From positions 1 to 37,196 of the forward strand of contig CANPXW010000012.1 in NCBI GenBank assembly GCA_947587025.1: 37,196 nucleotides of DNA, written 5' to 3'. The DNA is from an uncultured Oscillospiraceae bacterium. GTDB taxonomy: Bacteria; Bacillota; Clostridia; Oscillospirales; Oscillospiraceae. Of this stretch, positions 7,228 to 13,371 are shown one piece after another (positions within the stretch are counted from its first letter, which is position 1; each line of letters opens with the position of its first letter). Position numbers and translations under genes: made by a program. The notes under the pieces are model-generated. The model made no database searches. It worked only from the letters and a program-made list of their open reading frames with translations, and was not told the DNA's origin.

Positions 7228-9789
7228 ATGGGCGAGACGGCATCAAAGTGCATCATGATACTGGACGGCAACTCCATCGTCAACCGGGCGTATTTCGGCA
7301 TCCATATGCTCAACGCCCCGGACGGCACGCCCACCAACGGCGTGTACGGCTTCATCGCCATCCTCCAGCGGCTGCTGGATATGGAGCAGCCGGACGCGGT
7401 GTGCGTGACCTTCGACGTGCACGCGCCCACCTTCCGCCATAAGATGAGCAGCGCCTACAAGGCCACCCGCAAGCCCATGCCGGAGGAGCTGGTGGTGCAG
7501 ATACCGCTGCTGAAGCAGCTGCTGGACGCCATGGGCATCCACCGGTACGAGCTGGCCGGCTGGGAGGCGGACGACCTGATGGGCACCATGGCCGCCCGGT
7601 GCGAGCGGGCCGGCTGGACCTGCCGGCTGGTCACCGGGGACAAGGACAGCTTCCAGCTGATCACCGACGACACCCACGTCATCCATATCAAGACCCGCAT
7701 GGGCAAAACGGAGACCATAGAGTACGACCCGGTCCGGTTCCGGGCCGAATACGGCATGGAGCCGCCCGCCATCGTGGACCTGAAGGCCCTGATGGGGGAC
7801 AGCTCCGACAACATCCCCGGCGTGCCGGGCATCGGTGAGAAGTCCGCGCTGGATCTGCTGCACCGGTTCGGCTCTCTGGACGGGGTATATGAGAATCTGG
7901 CCGACCCGGCCATCAAGCCGGGCCAGCGCAGCAGGCTGGGGGCGGGAGAGGACAGCGCCCGGCTCAGCTATACCCTGGCCACCATCCGGCGGGACGCGCC
8001 CATCGACTTCGACCCGGCGGAGGATATATGGGCCCTGCGGCCCAGCGGCGAGCTGTACGGGCTGTGCCGGCGGCTGGGCTTTGGCCGGTTCATCGAGCGC
8101 TGGGGCCTGCAGGCGGGTCTGGAGGACGCGCCGGCGGAGGCCGAGCCTCTGCCCCAGGTCCGGGGCGACGCCGGGGCGGCCCTGGCGGCGGTGCTGGCGG
8201 CGGACGCGGTGGCGGTGCTGCCCATCGAGGGACTGGACGGGCTGACCGTCTGCGACGGGAAGGCCGTTTACACCGTGACCTGGGCCGCCGGCGGCGAGGA
8301 TTACGACCGCCTGCTGCGGGCGGTGTTCGACGGTGAAAAGAAGAAGATCGGCCACCACGTCAAGGAGCTGATGAACGCCCTGCTGGGCGAGGGGCTGCCC
8401 ACCGGCGGGTTCGTGTTCGACACGGCCCTGGCGGGGTATCTGCTGGACGCGCTGGCGGGGGATTATGCCCCGGCGAAGCTGAGCCAGAAGTACCTGGGCC
8501 GGGACCTGGACGGAGCCCAGGCGGTGTGGGAACTGTACGGCGTGCTGCCGGGGCTGCTGGAAAAGCAGGGCATGGAGAAGCTCTACTATGAGGTGGAGCT
8601 GCCCCTGTGCCCGGTGCTGGCGGAGATGGAGCGCACCGGCTTTCTGGCGGACAGGAAGGCCCTGTACGACTTCGGCCAGGAGCTGACTGCGGGCATCGCG
8701 GACATCCAGCAGCGGATATGGGACCTGGCCGGCTGCCAGTTCAACCCCAATTCCCCCAAGCAGCTGGGGGACATCCTGTTCGACCGGCTGGGCCTGCCCG
8801 GCGGCAAGCGCAACCCCCGGGGCTGGAGCACCAACGCCGACGTGCTGGAGCGGCTGCGGGACAAGCACCCCATCGTGGGCCTGGTGATCGAGTTCCGGGA
8901 GCTGGCCAAGCTGAAGAACACCTACACCGACGGCCTGCAGAAGGCCATCGGTCCCGACGGGCGCATCCACACCACCTTCCAGATGACCGTCACCGACACG
9001 GGGCGGCTGTCCTCCCGGGACCCCAATCTGCAGAACATCCCCGTCCGGCGCAAGCTGGGAGCCGGCATCCGGCGCATGTTCGTGGCCGGGCCGGGCAGCG
9101 TGCTGGTGGACGCGGATTACAGCCAGATCGAGCTGCGGCTGCTGGCCCACATGTCCGGGGACGAGGTCATGCGCCAGGCGTTCCTGTCCGGGGAGGACTT
9201 CCACGCGGTCACCGCCAGCCAGGTATTCGGCCTGCCCCTGGAGGCGGTGACGGCGGAGCTGCGCCGCCGGGCCAAGGCGGTCAACTTCGGCATCGTGTAC
9301 GGCATCTCCGCCTTCTCCCTGGCCCAGGACCTGGGCGTGCCGCAGGCGGAGGCTAAGCTGTACATCGACGCGTACCTGGCCCGGTTCAGCGGCGTGGACC
9401 GGTATATGGAGACCACCATCTCCCAGGCCAAGGAGCGGGGGTATGTGTCCACGCTGTTCGGCCGGCGGCGTGCGCTGCCGGAGCTGCACGCGTCCAACTA
9501 CAATCTGCGCTCCTTCGGCGAGCGGGTGGCCCGGAACATGCCCATCCAGGGCACTGCGGCGGACGTGATAAAGCTGGCCATGATAAGGGTCCACGCCCGG
9601 CTGGCGAAGGAGCTGCCCCAGGCCCGGCTGCTGCTGCAGGTCCACGACGAGCTGATCGTGGAATGCCCCGCCGACCAGGGGGAGCAGGCGGCCGTGATAT
9701 TGAAAGAGGAGATGGAGCGGGCCGTGGATTACACCGTGCCCCTCATCGCCGACGCCCACGTGGGCCACAGCTGGGCGGACGCCCATTAA
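7228..9789 (+). CDS. polA: DNA polymerase I
   Basis: An 853-residue family A DNA polymerase for Okazaki fragment processing and repair. The N-terminal 5' nuclease shows DGNSIVNRAYFGI, AYKATRKPMPEEL, GWEADDLMGTMA, TGDKDSFQLI and LMGDSSDNIPGVPGIG, with the acidic metal ligands intact. The central 3'-5' exonuclease-like domain (about residues 310-480) is degenerate: where a DxE exonuclease motif is expected the sequence reads VLPIEGLDGL. It has probably lost proofreading, as is usual in Firmicute enzymes. Polymerase motifs are complete: A (VDADYSQIELRLLAH), B (RRRAKAVNFGIVYG) and C (QVHDELIVE). ATG at 7228 follows AAAGGGA. The gene is followed by a structured repeat before rimI, so its transcript may end or be processed there. 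Confidence 0.98.
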   Translation: MGETASKCIMILDGNSIVNRAYFGIHMLNAPDGTPTNGVYGFIAILQRLLDMEQPDAVCVTFDVHAPTFRHKMSSAYKATRKPMPEELVVQIPLLKQLLDAMGIHRYELAGWEADDLMGTMAARCERAGWTCRLVTGDKDSFQLITDDTHVIHIKTRMGKTETIEYDPVRFRAEYGMEPPAIVDLKALMGDSSDNIPGVPGIGEKSALDLLHRFGSLDGVYENLADPAIKPGQRSRLGAGEDSARLSYTLATIRRDAPIDFDPAEDIWALRPSGELYGLCRRLGFGRFIERWGLQAGLEDAPAEAEPLPQVRGDAGAALAAVLAADAVAVLPIEGLDGLTVCDGKAVYTVTWAAGGEDYDRLLRAVFDGEKKKIGHHVKELMNALLGEGLPTGGFVFDTALAGYLLDALAGDYAPAKLSQKYLGRDLDGAQAVWELYGVLPGLLEKQGMEKLYYEVELPLCPVLAEMERTGFLADRKALYDFGQELTAGIADIQQRIWDLAGCQFNPNSPKQLGDILFDRLGLPGGKRNPRGWSTNADVLERLRDKHPIVGLVIEFRELAKLKNTYTDGLQKAIGPDGRIHTTFQMTVTDTGRLSSRDPNLQNIPVRRKLGAGIRRMFVAGPGSVLVDADYSQIELRLLAHMSGDEVMRQAFLSGEDFHAVTASQVFGLPLEAVTAELRRRAKAVNFGIVYGISAFSLAQDLGVPQAEAKLYIDAYLARFSGVDRYMETTISQAKERGYVSTLFGRRRALPELHASNYNLRSFGERVARNMPIQGTAADVIKLAMIRVHARLAKELPQARLLLQVHDELIVECPADQGEQAAVILKEEMERAVDYTVPLIADAHVGHSWADAH

Positions 9790-9790
9790 G

Positions 9791-9959
9791 TCGTTTGAAA
9801 GGAGCAAGCTCCTTTCAAACGAGAGAAATGCGGCCTGCTGCAGCGCACTCGCTTGCGCTCGCACGTTTGCAGGCCGAGAAGAGTTTTTTCCGAGGTACAC
9901 GCCCCCGGAAAAAACGATCCGAATCTATTCGCCGCTGCGGCGGCGAACTCTGCGAGGCT
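9791..9959 (+). repeat. Structured intergenic repeat, copy 1 (four hairpins; possible ncRNA or palindromic mobile element)
   Basis: This 169-bp stretch holds four hairpins: A, 9791-9805 with 9808-9822; B, 9831-9838 with 9869-9876, enclosing a variable inner stem (9842-9847 with 9854-9859); C, 9883-9892 with 9906-9915, with loop AGGTACACGCCCC; D, 9928-9935 with 9940-9947, followed by CTCTGCGAGGCT. A second copy at 13192-13371 has the same order and conserved blocks. Several stems differ between copies in both arms so that pairing is kept. The element fills the space between polA and rimI. I do not recognise it as a named RNA family. Confidence 0.88.
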
Positions 9960-9983
9960 GGGGGGTGCGGGGCTTTGGAAACT

Positions 9984-10406
9984 GTGACTATCCGCAATGC
10001 CACAGCTGAAGACATCTCCGCCATCGTCATGCTGGAGTGCGCCTGCTTTCCCGACCCATGGCCGGAGGACTTCATCGCCCGGCGGCTGGAGCGGATACTG
10101 GTGGCGGAGCGGGAGGGCTTTTTCCTGGGCTACGCGGCCTTGGACGCGGTGCTGGACGAGGGGAGCCTGGACAGCATCGCCGTCACGCCGGAGCGCCGCC
10201 GCCAGGGGGCTGCAGACGCGCTGCTCACCGCCGCCGAGACCTGGGGCCGGCAGCGGGGACTGCGCTTCATCACCCTGGAGGTCCGGGCCGGCAACGGGCC
10301 GGCCATCGCCCTGTACCGCAAGCACGGATATGCCCAGGTGGGCTACCGGAAAAACTACTACGAAAGACCCAGAGAGGACGCCATTTTGATGACGCTGGTG
10401 CTGTGA
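9984..10406 (+). CDS. rimI: Ribosomal protein S18 alanine N-acetyltransferase (RimI-like GNAT)
   Basis: A GNAT acetyltransferase of about 140 residues. It shows the acidic start of the fold (AEDISAIVMLECACFPDPW), a core strand LDSIAVTPERRRQGAADALL carrying the acetyl-CoA-binding R/QxxGxA pattern, and the C-terminal NGPAIALYRKHGYAQVGYRKNYY typical of RimI. The start is unclear because the upstream repeat ends right at the gene: GTG at 9984 gives MTIRNATAED, and TTG at 9975 adds three residues; neither has a strong ribosome site. The stop directly abuts the tsaD ATG. In bacteria rimI commonly clusters with tsaB, tsaD and tsaE, which supports the assignment over a generic GNAT. Confidence 0.85.
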   Translation: MTIRNATAEDISAIVMLECACFPDPWPEDFIARRLERILVAEREGFFLGYAALDAVLDEGSLDSIAVTPERRRQGAADALLTAAETWGRQRGLRFITLEVRAGNGPAIALYRKHGYAQVGYRKNYYERPREDAILMTLVL

Positions 10407-11411
10407 ATGAACATTTTAGCTGTTGAATCCTCCTGTGACGAGACCGCCGTGGCGGTGGTGGCCGACGGCCGGCGGGTGCTGGCCGACGAGATATTCTCCC
10501 AGGTGGCCCTGCACGAGATATACGGCGGGGTGGTGCCGGAGATCGCCGCCCGCAGCCACTTAGAGGTGGTGAGCCTGCTGGCCGACCGGGCGCTGAGGAC
10601 CGCCGGCGTGACCCGCGCCGACATCGACGCGGTGGCCTGCACCTACGCCCCCGGCCTCATAGGCGCGGTGCTGGTGGGGGTCAACTTTGCCAAGAGCGCC
10701 GCTCTGGCCCTGGGCGTGCCGCTGATCCCGGTGCACCACATCCGGGGCCACATCGCCGCCAACTACCTGGCCTTCCCGGAACTGGAGCCGCCTTTCCTGT
10801 GCCTGGCCATCTCCGGGGGCAACACCATGCTGGTGGACGTGCGGGGCTATACGGACATGTCCGTGCTGGGCCGGACCCGTGACGACGCGGCGGGGGAGTG
10901 CTTCGACAAGTCCGCCCGTGTGCTGGGCCTGGGCTACCCCGGCGGCAAGCCCATAGACGATCTCAGCAAGCAGGGCGACGATGGGGCTTATGAGCTGCCC
11001 CGGCCGGCGGTGAACGACGGCAACCCCTACGACATGAGCTTCTCCGGCCTGAAAACGGCGGTGGTGAACATCGTCCACCACGCCCAGCAGACCGGCGCTG
11101 CTGTGGACAAGGCCGGTCTTGCCGCCAGCCTGTGCCGGGCGGTGAGCGAGACGCTGGTGATCCGGACCATGGACGCGGCGCAAAAGCTGGGCTATGAGCG
11201 CGTCGCCGCAGCGGGGGGCGTGGCCGCCAACTCCCGGATACGGGCGGATTTCCAGGCCGCCTGCGAAAAGGCGGGAAAGACCCTGTACGTGCCGCCCCTG
11301 CGGCTGTGCGGGGACAACGCCGCCATGATCGGCGCCCAGGGGTATTACGAATACCTGGCCGGCCACACCGCCGGTCCCGACCTGAACGCCTACGCCACCA
11401 TGGAGCTGTGA
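10407..11411 (+). CDS. tsaD: tRNA N6-adenosine threonylcarbamoyltransferase subunit TsaD
   Basis: This 334-residue Kae1/Qri7/YgjD-family protein transfers the threonylcarbamoyl group to A37 of ANN-decoding tRNAs. The N-terminus ILAVESSCDETAVAVV is the ASKHA phosphate-binding motif, and VHHIRGHIAANYL (near residue 110) holds the metal-binding His pair. CLAISGGNTMLV, GRTRDDAAGECFDKSARVLGLGYPGG and VAAAGGVAANSRIR are also diagnostic. The gene begins at the base after the rimI stop and is followed 1 nt later by tsaE, so the cluster is tightly coupled. TsaD works with TsaB and TsaE, both encoded next, and with TsaC, which is not in the window. Confidence 0.97.
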   Translation: MNILAVESSCDETAVAVVADGRRVLADEIFSQVALHEIYGGVVPEIAARSHLEVVSLLADRALRTAGVTRADIDAVACTYAPGLIGAVLVGVNFAKSAALALGVPLIPVHHIRGHIAANYLAFPELEPPFLCLAISGGNTMLVDVRGYTDMSVLGRTRDDAAGECFDKSARVLGLGYPGGKPIDDLSKQGDDGAYELPRPAVNDGNPYDMSFSGLKTAVVNIVHHAQQTGAAVDKAGLAASLCRAVSETLVIRTMDAAQKLGYERVAAAGGVAANSRIRADFQAACEKAGKTLYVPPLRLCGDNAAMIGAQGYYEYLAGHTAGPDLNAYATMEL

Positions 11412-11412
11412 T

Positions 11413-11847
11413 ATGACATACACCACCCATTCAGAGGAAGAGACCGAGGCCCTGGGGGCCGAATTCGCCAAAAAACTGCCGGCGGGGGCCGTGGCGGCGC
11501 TCTACGGGGAGCTGGGCTGCGGCAAGACCGCCTTCGTCCGGGGCATGGCCCGGGGCATGGGCATCGGCTGCCTGGTCAGCAGCCCCACCTTCACCATCGT
11601 CAACGAGTACCTGGGCGGGCCGGGGACCATCCCCCTGTTCCACTTCGACATGTACCGCCTGGGCGGGGCGGAGGAGCTTTACGACATCGGCTGGGAGGAC
11701 TACCTAGGCCGTGGCGGCGTGTGCGCCGTGGAGTGGAGCGAGAACGTGCCCGGAGCCTTCGACGGGGACGAGATCGCCGTCCGCTTTGAAAAGACCGGGG
11801 ACAACGACCGGACCATCACCATCGGGAAACAGGAGGACCTATGCTGA
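11413..11847 (+). CDS. tsaE: tRNA t6A biosynthesis ATPase TsaE
   Basis: A 144-residue P-loop ATPase with Walker A ALYGELGCGKTAFVRGMARGMG, followed by the family-specific VSSPTFTIVNEY and FHFDMYRL segments and the Walker-B-like CAVEWSEN. TsaE resets the TsaB-TsaD complex between catalytic rounds of t6A synthesis. The start lies 1 nt after the tsaD stop, and the end overlaps tsaB by 7 nt, consistent with coupled translation of the complex. Confidence 0.96.
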   Translation: MTYTTHSEEETEALGAEFAKKLPAGAVAALYGELGCGKTAFVRGMARGMGIGCLVSSPTFTIVNEYLGGPGTIPLFHFDMYRLGGAEELYDIGWEDYLGRGGVCAVEWSENVPGAFDGDEIAVRFEKTGDNDRTITIGKQEDLC

Positions 11848-12533
11848 CTCTTGCGCTGGAGAGCTCCGCCAAGGCCGCGTCGGCGGCCGTGTTCGAGGAC
11901 GATAAGATGCTGGCCTTCGCCATCCAGAACGCCGGCCTGACCCACAGCCGCACCCTGCTGCCCATGGCGGAAGAGCTTATAAAGGGCCTGGACCGGACCA
12001 TGGCGGACGTAGGGCTGGTGGCGGTGAGCCGGGGGCCGGGGTCCTTCACGGGCCTGCGGATAGGTCTTGCCGAGGCCAAGGGCCTGTGCTGGGCGCTTCA
12101 AATTCCTGCCGTGGGGGTCTCCACCCTGGAGGCTATGGCCTTCGGCGGGCCGGTGCTGGACGGGCAGATGCTCTGCTGCTGCATGGACGCCCGCCGGGGC
12201 CAGGTCTACAACGCCCTGTTCACCGTGGAGGGGGGCAGGCCCGTGCGCCTGACGCCGGACCGGGCCATATCCGTTGCCGAGCTGGAGAGCGAGCTGGTGG
12301 CCCGTCAGGAGCCGTGGATACTGCTTGGCGACGGGGCCGAGCTGTGCTATAATACTTTGGACCGGACCCAGGTGACGGTGTTCATGGCCCCGGAGCCCCT
12401 GCGGATACAGAACGCCAGGGGCGTGGCCCTGGCGGCCAGAGGGAAGGACCCGGTGTCCGCCCACGAGCTGCTGCCGGTGTATCTGCGCCTGAGCCAGGCC
12501 GAGCGGGAGCGCCTGGCCCGGATGGAAAAGTAA
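11841..12533 (+). CDS. tsaB: tRNA t6A biosynthesis scaffold protein TsaB
   Basis: A 230-residue catalytically inactive TsaD paralogue that dimerises with TsaD. It begins LTLALESSAKAASAAVF and contains the signature VAVSRGPGSFTGLRIGLAEAKGL, as well as MDARRGQVYNALF. It overlaps tsaE by 7 nt, with its ribosome site (AGGAGG) inside tsaE. The gene order rimI-tsaD-tsaE-tsaB differs from the common tsaE-tsaB-rimI-tsaD order, although all four partners remain together. Confidence 0.96.
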   Translation: MLTLALESSAKAASAAVFEDDKMLAFAIQNAGLTHSRTLLPMAEELIKGLDRTMADVGLVAVSRGPGSFTGLRIGLAEAKGLCWALQIPAVGVSTLEAMAFGGPVLDGQMLCCCMDARRGQVYNALFTVEGGRPVRLTPDRAISVAELESELVARQEPWILLGDGAELCYNTLDRTQVTVFMAPEPLRIQNARGVALAARGKDPVSAHELLPVYLRLSQAERERLARMEK

Positions 12534-12560
12534 AAACCTTCTTACAAAGGAGAAACGGAT

Positions 12561-13190
12561 ATGAGCAACATTATGGTCTTCGACCACCCCCTCATCCAGC
12601 ACAAGCTGTCCATCCTCCGGGACGAGAACACCAGCGTCAAGGAGTTCCGGGAGCTGGTCAGCGAGATCGCCAAGCTGATGTGCTACGAGGCCACCCGGGA
12701 CCTGCCTCTGGAGGAGGTCAAGGTCAAGACGCCCGTGGCCGAGGCCACCTGCCGCCGCATCGCCGGCAAGAAGCTGGCCATCGTGCCCATCCTCCGTGCC
12801 GGCCTGGGCATGGTGGACGGCATGGTCGCCATGATGCCCAACGTGAAGGTGGGGCACATCGGCCTGTTCCGGGACCCGGAGACCCTGGCTCCGGTGAAGT
12901 ACTACTTCAAGATGCCCCCCGACATCACCGAGCGTGACGTGATCATCGTGGACCCCATGCTGGCCACCGGCGGCAGCGCCATCGCGGCGGCCCAGTTCCT
13001 CAAGGACGAGGGCGTGAAGAACATCAAGCTGATGTGCATCATCGCCGCCCCCGAGGGCGTGGAGGCCATGCAGAGCACCCACCCGGACGTGGACATCTTC
13101 GCCGCTGCTCTGGACGACCATCTCAACGACCACGGCTATATCGTCCCCGGCCTGGGCGACGCCGGCGATCGGATATTCGGCACGAAATAA
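12561..13190 (+). CDS. upp: Uracil phosphoribosyltransferase
   Basis: A 209-residue salvage enzyme converting uracil and PRPP to UMP in the cytoplasm. The PRPP-binding loop [22 protein letters not shown], the N-terminal [25 protein letters not shown] and the C-terminal [18 protein letters not shown], which contacts uracil, are all present, and the length is exactly that of the family. ATG at 12561 follows AAAGGAG. The gene lies 27 bp downstream of tsaB, so it may be read from the same transcript. A structured repeat begins directly after the stop codon, as it does after polA. Confidence 0.98.
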
Positions 13191-13191
13191 T

Positions 13192-13371
13192 TCGTTTGAA
13201 TGCAAGCATTCAAACGAGAGGGCTGCGGCCCGCTGCAGCGCAAAGCGCCCCCGTCCTACCGGATGGGGGCGTTCACGTTTGCGGGCCGAGAAGAATGATT
13301 TCCGAGGTACACGCCCCCGGAAATCATGATCTCACTTTATTCGCGCCTGCGGGCGCGAACTCTGCGAGGCT
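13192..13371 (+). repeat. Structured intergenic repeat, copy 2
   Basis: The same element as at 9791-9959, in the same orientation. Hairpin A is 13192-13203 with 13206-13217; B is 13226-13233 with 13281-13288, enclosing a longer, different inner stem (around 13245-13272); C is 13295-13304 with 13318-13327, with the identical loop AGGTACACGCCCC; D is 13340-13347 with 13352-13359, followed by the identical CTCTGCGAGGCT. Stem changes relative to copy 1 are compensatory, for example GCCTGC/GCAGGC against GCCCGC/GCGGGC. It begins just after the upp stop. Confidence 0.88.

Follow-up and report, generated by a model that had tools for sequence, protein, structure and literature searches.

A probably mobile, modular palindromic element at gene ends in Oscillospirales

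Introduction

ERIC, BOX, bcr1 and RUP are non-autonomous, intergenic miniature palindromic elements that show presence/absence variation, insertion sequences of the IS200/IS605 group carry subterminal hairpins and leave no target duplication, and HEARO and similar Rfam families are dispersed structured repeats of bacteria. Here we analyse a palindromic element that occurs twice in a stretch of 37,196 nucleotides from an uncultured Oscillospiraceae bacterium (assembly GCA_947587025.1, contig CANPXW010000012.1, positions 1 to 37,196, forward strand; hereafter the window). Its copies are spread through the order Oscillospirales, are present or absent at orthologous sites of close relatives, lie flush with a stop codon in most genus-type cases, and carry palindromes with matching arms and freely mixing alleles. 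We regard it as probable that this is a non-autonomous, mobile and modular DNA-palindrome element of Oscillospirales, akin to repetitive extragenic palindromes (REPs) and bacterial interspersed mosaic elements (BIMEs).

REPs are units of 20–40 bp with a GTAG or CGTC tag that often lie within 20 bp of the 3′ ends of open reading frames (ORFs), and the repeat can supply the flanking ORF's stop codon (PMC3733652). They are usually present in more than 100 copies (PMC2817692), and those at most 15 nt from a stop are reported to stall ribosomes, a closeness reached by only 446 of the 4,072 Escherichia coli REPs in the study concerned (PMC12306157). The element described here resembles REPs and BIMEs in consisting of dispersed palindromes near ORF 3′ ends (81 of 94 copies, 49 of 58 clusters). 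Its own genome holds 15 strong matches, and 34 of 35 genomes of the genus have 1–33 matches, opposite-strand echoes included. It differs in its length of 160–190 nt; in its four or five distinct palindromes, set in a fixed order, and its conserved 13-nt loop; in the GTAG foot, which only 3 of 96 element copies have; and in that no REP-associated tyrosine transposase (RAYT, the Y1 partner of REPs) was found with the element in its own genome (G000) or in G020, G028 and G034. As it lacks the short tagged unit and no RAYT partner was found, we class the element as a larger, mosaic variant among the dispersed palindromic repeats of REP/BIME type rather than as a REP itself.

Unlike ERIC, BOX, bcr1, RUP or a classical miniature inverted-repeat transposable element, genus-type copies have no flank duplication; unlike IS200/IS605, no Y1 transposase was found with the element, and a motif scan of 14 Y1 loci brought up no copy with which it might share its ends. 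The preliminary description, which knew no named family with this sequence, holds for Rfam families such as HEARO: no match reached the gathering score in the window or in seven loci, and relaxed thresholds brought up only sub-threshold hits. A literature search of titles and abstract starts likewise found no published description.

Results

Two window copies share one architecture

The element is a block of parts in the order A-B-C-D-E, with four or five DNA palindromes, of which A is perfect. Direct reading bears out what had been said of the two window copies: the quoted stems, the 13-nt loop AGGTACACGCCCC of hairpin C, conserved in both, and the CTCTGCGAGGCT end are as given; the stems of A, B, C and D do differ by paired changes; and both copies start one base after the stop codon of an open frame (7228–9789 and 12561–13190). 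Their fold z-scores are −6.1 (copy 1) and −8.2 (copy 2), and 0 of 200 shuffles folded as well for either. The features are as follows.

9791–9959, + strand: element copy 1, read directly; covariance model E 6.0e-51; one base past the polA stop (9787–9789)
9791–9822, + strand: copy 1, palindrome A, arms TCGTTTGAAAGGAGC / GCTCCTTTCAAACGA
9831–9876, + strand: copy 1, hairpin B, inner arm variable, conserved GCAGCGCA / ACGTTTGC
9883–9915, + strand: copy 1, hairpin C, loop AGGTACACGCCCC at 9893–9905
9928–9947, + strand: copy 1, hairpin D, TTCGCCGC TGCG GCGGCGAA
9948–9959, + strand: copy 1, right end E, conserved CTCTGCGAGGCT
13192–13371, + strand: element copy 2, read directly; covariance model E 1.1e-51; one base past the upp stop (13188–13190)
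13192–13217, + strand: copy 2, palindrome A, arms TCGTTTGAATGC / GCATTCAAACGA
13226–13288, + strand: copy 2, hairpin B, inner arm long and variable
13295–13327, + strand: copy 2, hairpin C, loop at 13305–13317
13340–13359, + strand: copy 2, hairpin D
13360–13371, + strand: copy 2, right end E
7228–9789, + strand: open frame 5′ of copy 1, presumably DNA polymerase I (polA)
12561–13190, + strand: open frame 5′ of copy 2, presumably uracil phosphoribosyltransferase (upp)

Both gene names come from the preliminary description. Across 31 other genomes of the genus, the principal hit to the last 199 polA codons matches at 73–84%, and upp has matches in 33 of the 35.

The element is abundant in one bacterial order

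The hairpin C core, with up to two mismatches, occurs at 10 places in the element's own genome, where a control pattern occurs at 0. A covariance model was built from nine of these places, the tenth (L008) being cut by a contig end. It finds 28 matches in that genome, 15 of them strong (E ≤4.6e-18) and 13 weaker (E 8.8e-7 to 0.06), several of the latter being opposite-strand echoes of the palindromes. The preliminary description would have been refuted had there been no further copies; this is not so, the window copies being two among many dispersed matches. At E 0.01 the model matches in 34 of the 35 genus genomes, and at E 1e-4 in 165 of 300 sampled genomes of the family (73 of 106 genera) and in 45 of 394 genomes of the order. 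At E 1e-6 it matches in 5 of 391 genomes of the class, two of them outside the order and weak (1.8e-7 and 3.0e-7); among the genomes sampled, strong matches are confined to the order. Together with the filled and empty sites described below, this spread upholds the part of the initial reading that saw something undescribed, dispersed, palindromic and mobile.

At least 116 named stretches match; those among the matches listed are uncultured or metagenome-assembled records with the titles Oscillospiraceae, Ruminococcaceae, Clostridiales, Clostridia, Oscillibacter, Candidatus Pelethomonas and plain uncultured bacterium. Matches in plasmid and phage records comprise one Vescimonas record (12 places) and two faecal phage fragments, every one of them partial. 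On three contigs from a viral collection (L208, L209, L210), copies lie amid long frames that by eye resemble phage structural genes. Phages may carry the element between hosts.

Most genus-type copies begin at a stop codon

Placement was scored in 94 copies that have a recognisable TCG/TCA left arm, a CTCTG-type right end and at least 200 bases upstream, other-ended copies being dropped; they come from loci mostly fetched for matching the element, and a gene end is here the end of an open frame of at least 60 codons (40 where the locus end cuts the frame), not of an annotated gene. A frame ends within −8 to +9 nt of the left end of the element in 81 of these copies, against 4–6 of 88 when positions are moved 30–150 bases upstream. 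When a single copy stands for each cluster of alike upstream genes, 49 of 58 are stop-flush, and the shifted controls give 3–4 of 55. The commonest offset is −1 (33 copies). In 13 of the 94, site S4 for example, the stop lies inside palindrome A; in five it is further off, and in eight there is none within 60 bases. The gene's stop is either retained or furnished by the first palindrome. At site S11 the 5′ arm of A contains the gene's own stop; one species has CGT TAA there, the second has CGG TGA, and each has a 3′ arm of A to match.

We also considered the GAGG of the right end as a ribosome-binding site and set the idea aside as anecdotal (S4, S9, S13), start codons being only slightly commoner close by: one lies +2 to 12 bases after the right end in 10 of 57 copies, and in 9, 7, 6, 5 and 4 of 57 further off.

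Orthologous sites are filled, empty or truncated

The preliminary description had proposed that empty versus filled orthologous sites would support mobility, and such differences were found at polA, upp, S4, S8 and S12. Behind polA, which is present in 32 of the 35 genus genomes and was fetched at 30 loci, the full C core lies within 330 nt in four loci (L211, L219, L223, L231), two have a variant element (L213, L215), one is disrupted (L226) and three keep remnants (L216, L217, L228); in the remaining loci of the 30 no element was seen by eye. Behind upp (gene in 33 of 35 genomes, 30 loci fetched), L241 and L253 are filled and L270 retains part of A. Three close species pairs were compared, with 92–94% identity over the aligned polA region. 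Site S4 is filled only in G032 of five genomes seen (L296 against L376, L464, L465 and L466) and S12 only in G011 of four (L307 against L381, L462 and L463); in the S12 relatives without the element, stop and start codons overlap as TGATG. Site S8 is filled in G011 and G023 (L301, L317), and in G032, G019, G021 and G015 a terminator-like hairpin stands there instead (L378, L390, L473, L474). Further remnants occur at L379, L384 and L393, and several sites hold truncated forms (D-E only, A only, or A-B-C). Since orthologous sites in close relatives are filled in some and empty or truncated in others, we take the element to be a mobile palindromic one. Whole regions have likely been exchanged between species at S8, and may have been at other sites.

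Paired stem changes fit DNA palindromes better than a selected RNA

The preliminary description took conserved loops with covarying stems as the mark of a selected structure, RNA or single-stranded DNA. Covariation is indeed strong: among 71 distinct aligned matches (one row, L037:1655-1746, being an opposite-strand echo), standard pairs fill 97.3% of the pair cells, and changes on both sides are seen in 39 of 49 pairs. This level is reached by 0 of 500 shuffles, a figure that cannot be read as a probability, since the copies are relatives of one another. As proof of a selected RNA, however, the covarying stems fail. A selected transcript would tolerate G·U and not the mirror-image A·C, and the stems A, B-outer, C, D and E have no such excess (2913 Watson–Crick, 14 G·T, 22 A·C and 24 other cells), which weakens the case for a selected RNA. 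At orthologous sites, 109 pairs have changed on both sides to another Watson–Crick pair and only 21 on one side, while 7 changed on both sides without a Watson–Crick outcome and 828 are unchanged (22 non-independent comparisons in 11 site groups, some between non-sister species, inner helix B excluded). Several paired changes arrive as blocks. In the two inner pairs of C, 33 of 142 cells do not pair.

The hairpins occur as few alleles that combine almost freely: those of C and D are weakly linked (in 70 copies, mutual information 0.38, compared with 0.24 after permutation; p 0.02), by a crude allele assignment limited to the six commonest alleles of each. Judged from the sequences, the pattern is consistent with DNA palindromes whose arms serve as templates for one another and pass from copy to copy. 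Arm copying, selection for perfect DNA hairpins and exchange of hairpins between copies would all lead to the same expected pattern, and these data do not separate them. In PMC8794818, template switching is described as producing simultaneous paired changes, contrasted with changes through G–U steps. The perfect stems seen here, with simultaneous changes of both arms and no G·U steps, are like the hairpins of that paper, although those lie in RNA genes and template switching is suggested here from the pattern alone.

We therefore judge it unlikely that the element is a selected structured RNA, that is, a 3′-untranslated-region (3′ UTR) element that folds within the mRNA, governs how stable the upstream gene's message is, where it ends or how it is translated, and has spread by duplication. 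The fixed position after the stop, the co-orientation with the gene, the strong folds, the double-sided changes in 39 of 49 pairs, the conserved loops, the conserved G·T pair of inner helix B and the element standing in place of a terminator hairpin at S8 would all suit such an RNA, but the 14 G·T against 22 A·C among 2973 main-stem cells and the 109 double against 21 single changes do not. Were the element needed at particular sites, one would also expect it in full at more than the 4 of 30 polA loci and the 2 of 30 upp loci that have it.

No mover tracks the copies

The Y1_Tnp domain is found in 12 of the 35 genus genomes, the copy-rich G018 and G029 included, and RVT_1 in 12 of 35, own genome included; G029 (33 model matches) has both. 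Neither a Y1 transposase nor a reverse transcriptase was retained as a partner of the element, as their presence does not track copy number. A search for an autonomous version was also negative: all 14 right-end matches in the element's own genome fall at known copies, and a reversed-pattern control gave 2 matches. Of 30 loci taken from four genomes, the 12 in which the pattern had missed the C core were inspected and proved to be variant or truncated forms.

Movement by an IS200/IS605-type transposase, one possibility named in the preliminary description, is not supported here. The element would then be single-stranded DNA moved by such a Y1 (HUH) enzyme in cis or in trans, as RAYT moves REPs. 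Hairpins with conserved asymmetric features (the B wobble and the C loop), genus copies without flank duplication and a left flank ending in AG in 46 of 96 copies are what such a route would lead one to expect. Set against them, Y1_Tnp was not found in G000, G020, G028 or G034, genomes that are incomplete, though it is present in G018 and G029, and a scan of 14 Y1 loci with three short motifs gave no element, only a lone 8-base match in L341. We consider this route quite unlikely.

Flanks, terminators and neighbouring repeats

The left tetramers of the 96 copies include TAAG (18), TGAG (7), ATAG (6) and GTAG (3), and no terminal inverted repeat was seen by eye between TCGTTTGAA and GAGGCT. Near-copies of one hairpin bracket 9 of the 47 copies that lack the genus-type left arm and none of the 53 that have it; in permuted pairs the rate is 0.3%. 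At L070, L066, L155, L129, L141, L174, L184 and L202, near-copies of one terminator-like hairpin flank the element on both sides; there it looks as if the whole hairpin had been duplicated upon insertion. A host terminator replaces palindrome A in L127 and at S22 (L324), whose gene by eye is tuf-like, and at S19 the element occupies the position of a close relative's terminator-like hairpin.

Insertion might be linked to the end of translation or to the mRNA itself, the element entering at the message's stop codon; for example, its strand could be joined to a 3′ end that arises where a ribosome terminates, and then be copied back. Such a step would account for why the element lands co-oriented and flush with stops, why its first palindrome carries a stop and why terminators are lost, yet we give it only a small chance of being right. 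It is highly improbable that the element is a cassette that replaces terminators and works as a two-sided one. In its favour are the terminator-like hairpins that close relatives have in place of the element at S8 and S19, the host terminators that stand in for A at S22 and L127, and the 9 of 47 other-type copies between hairpin near-copies. Against it, the copies at S2 and S10 retain a downstream terminator, and those at S4, S12 and S13 sit at close-packed gene junctions within operons, where a terminator would shut off the gene that follows.

Other repeats accompany the element. A second palindromic repeat of about 95–110 nt (GGGCCCCCACGAAGC or similar) lies inside hairpins C or D or beside an element remnant at L219 and L226 (both after polA), L443 (G000:C57) and L389, so that repeats nest in the element. 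A third dispersed repeat (GCCTCCCTCTGACGAGGGAGGTGGC / CTCCCTTGTGCAAAGGGAG or similar) occupies gene junctions in relatives without the element there (L218, L229, L233, L242, L245, L375, L377, L391, L469, L479, L480). At G020:C32:2149-2246, three right-end units stand in tandem with 42-base spacing.

Discussion

Several observations weigh against reading the element as a non-autonomous, mobile DNA palindrome. None of 53 genus-type copies has a flank repeat score of 12 or more. In inner helix B the G·T pair is itself conserved in 59 of 71 rows and, like the conserved loops, would also suit an RNA or a protein-bound single strand. Neither Y1_Tnp nor RVT_1 was found in G020, G028 and G034, which hold 25, 27 and 32 model matches, although G020 is 97% complete and has 22 right-end matches. 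Placement is also mixed in a 49-kb stretch of Vescimonas fastidiosa MM35, an annotated isolate with five model matches: one starts two bases past the era stop on the same strand; a reversed one has the stop of nusA one base from its right end; two strong matches lack a flush stop, one lying 37 nt behind a small coding sequence and the other between divergent genes; and the weakest overlaps the end of rimP. The stop rule therefore looks looser outside the genus.

A mobile DNA palindrome nevertheless remains the reading that we favour. Copies would spread as hairpin-forming single strands through an enzyme acting in trans, and selection would purge insertions that damage genes, so that those at gene ends persist. 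The arms of each palindrome could be kept alike by template switching or by gene conversion, which would produce the covariation. The element would be transcribed as the 3′ UTR of the upstream gene or as a spacer. By analogy with REPs at most 15 nt from a stop, a hairpin 0–3 nt past the stop may hold up ribosomes at termination and protect the message or bring it to an end, and in this way affect the upstream gene.

For RNA discovery, the element is a warning that near-perfect covariation can stem from DNA palindromes that copy their arms, a source that the ratio of G·U to A·C exposes. Insertion coupled to stop codons, if true, would be a new mode of targeting. For the bacteria themselves, an important group of the gut, the copies make up an abundant repeat family not listed before, present in more than half of the family genomes sampled. 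By lying on the 3′ side of polA and other housekeeping genes they may affect both the expression of these genes and the annotation of their ends.

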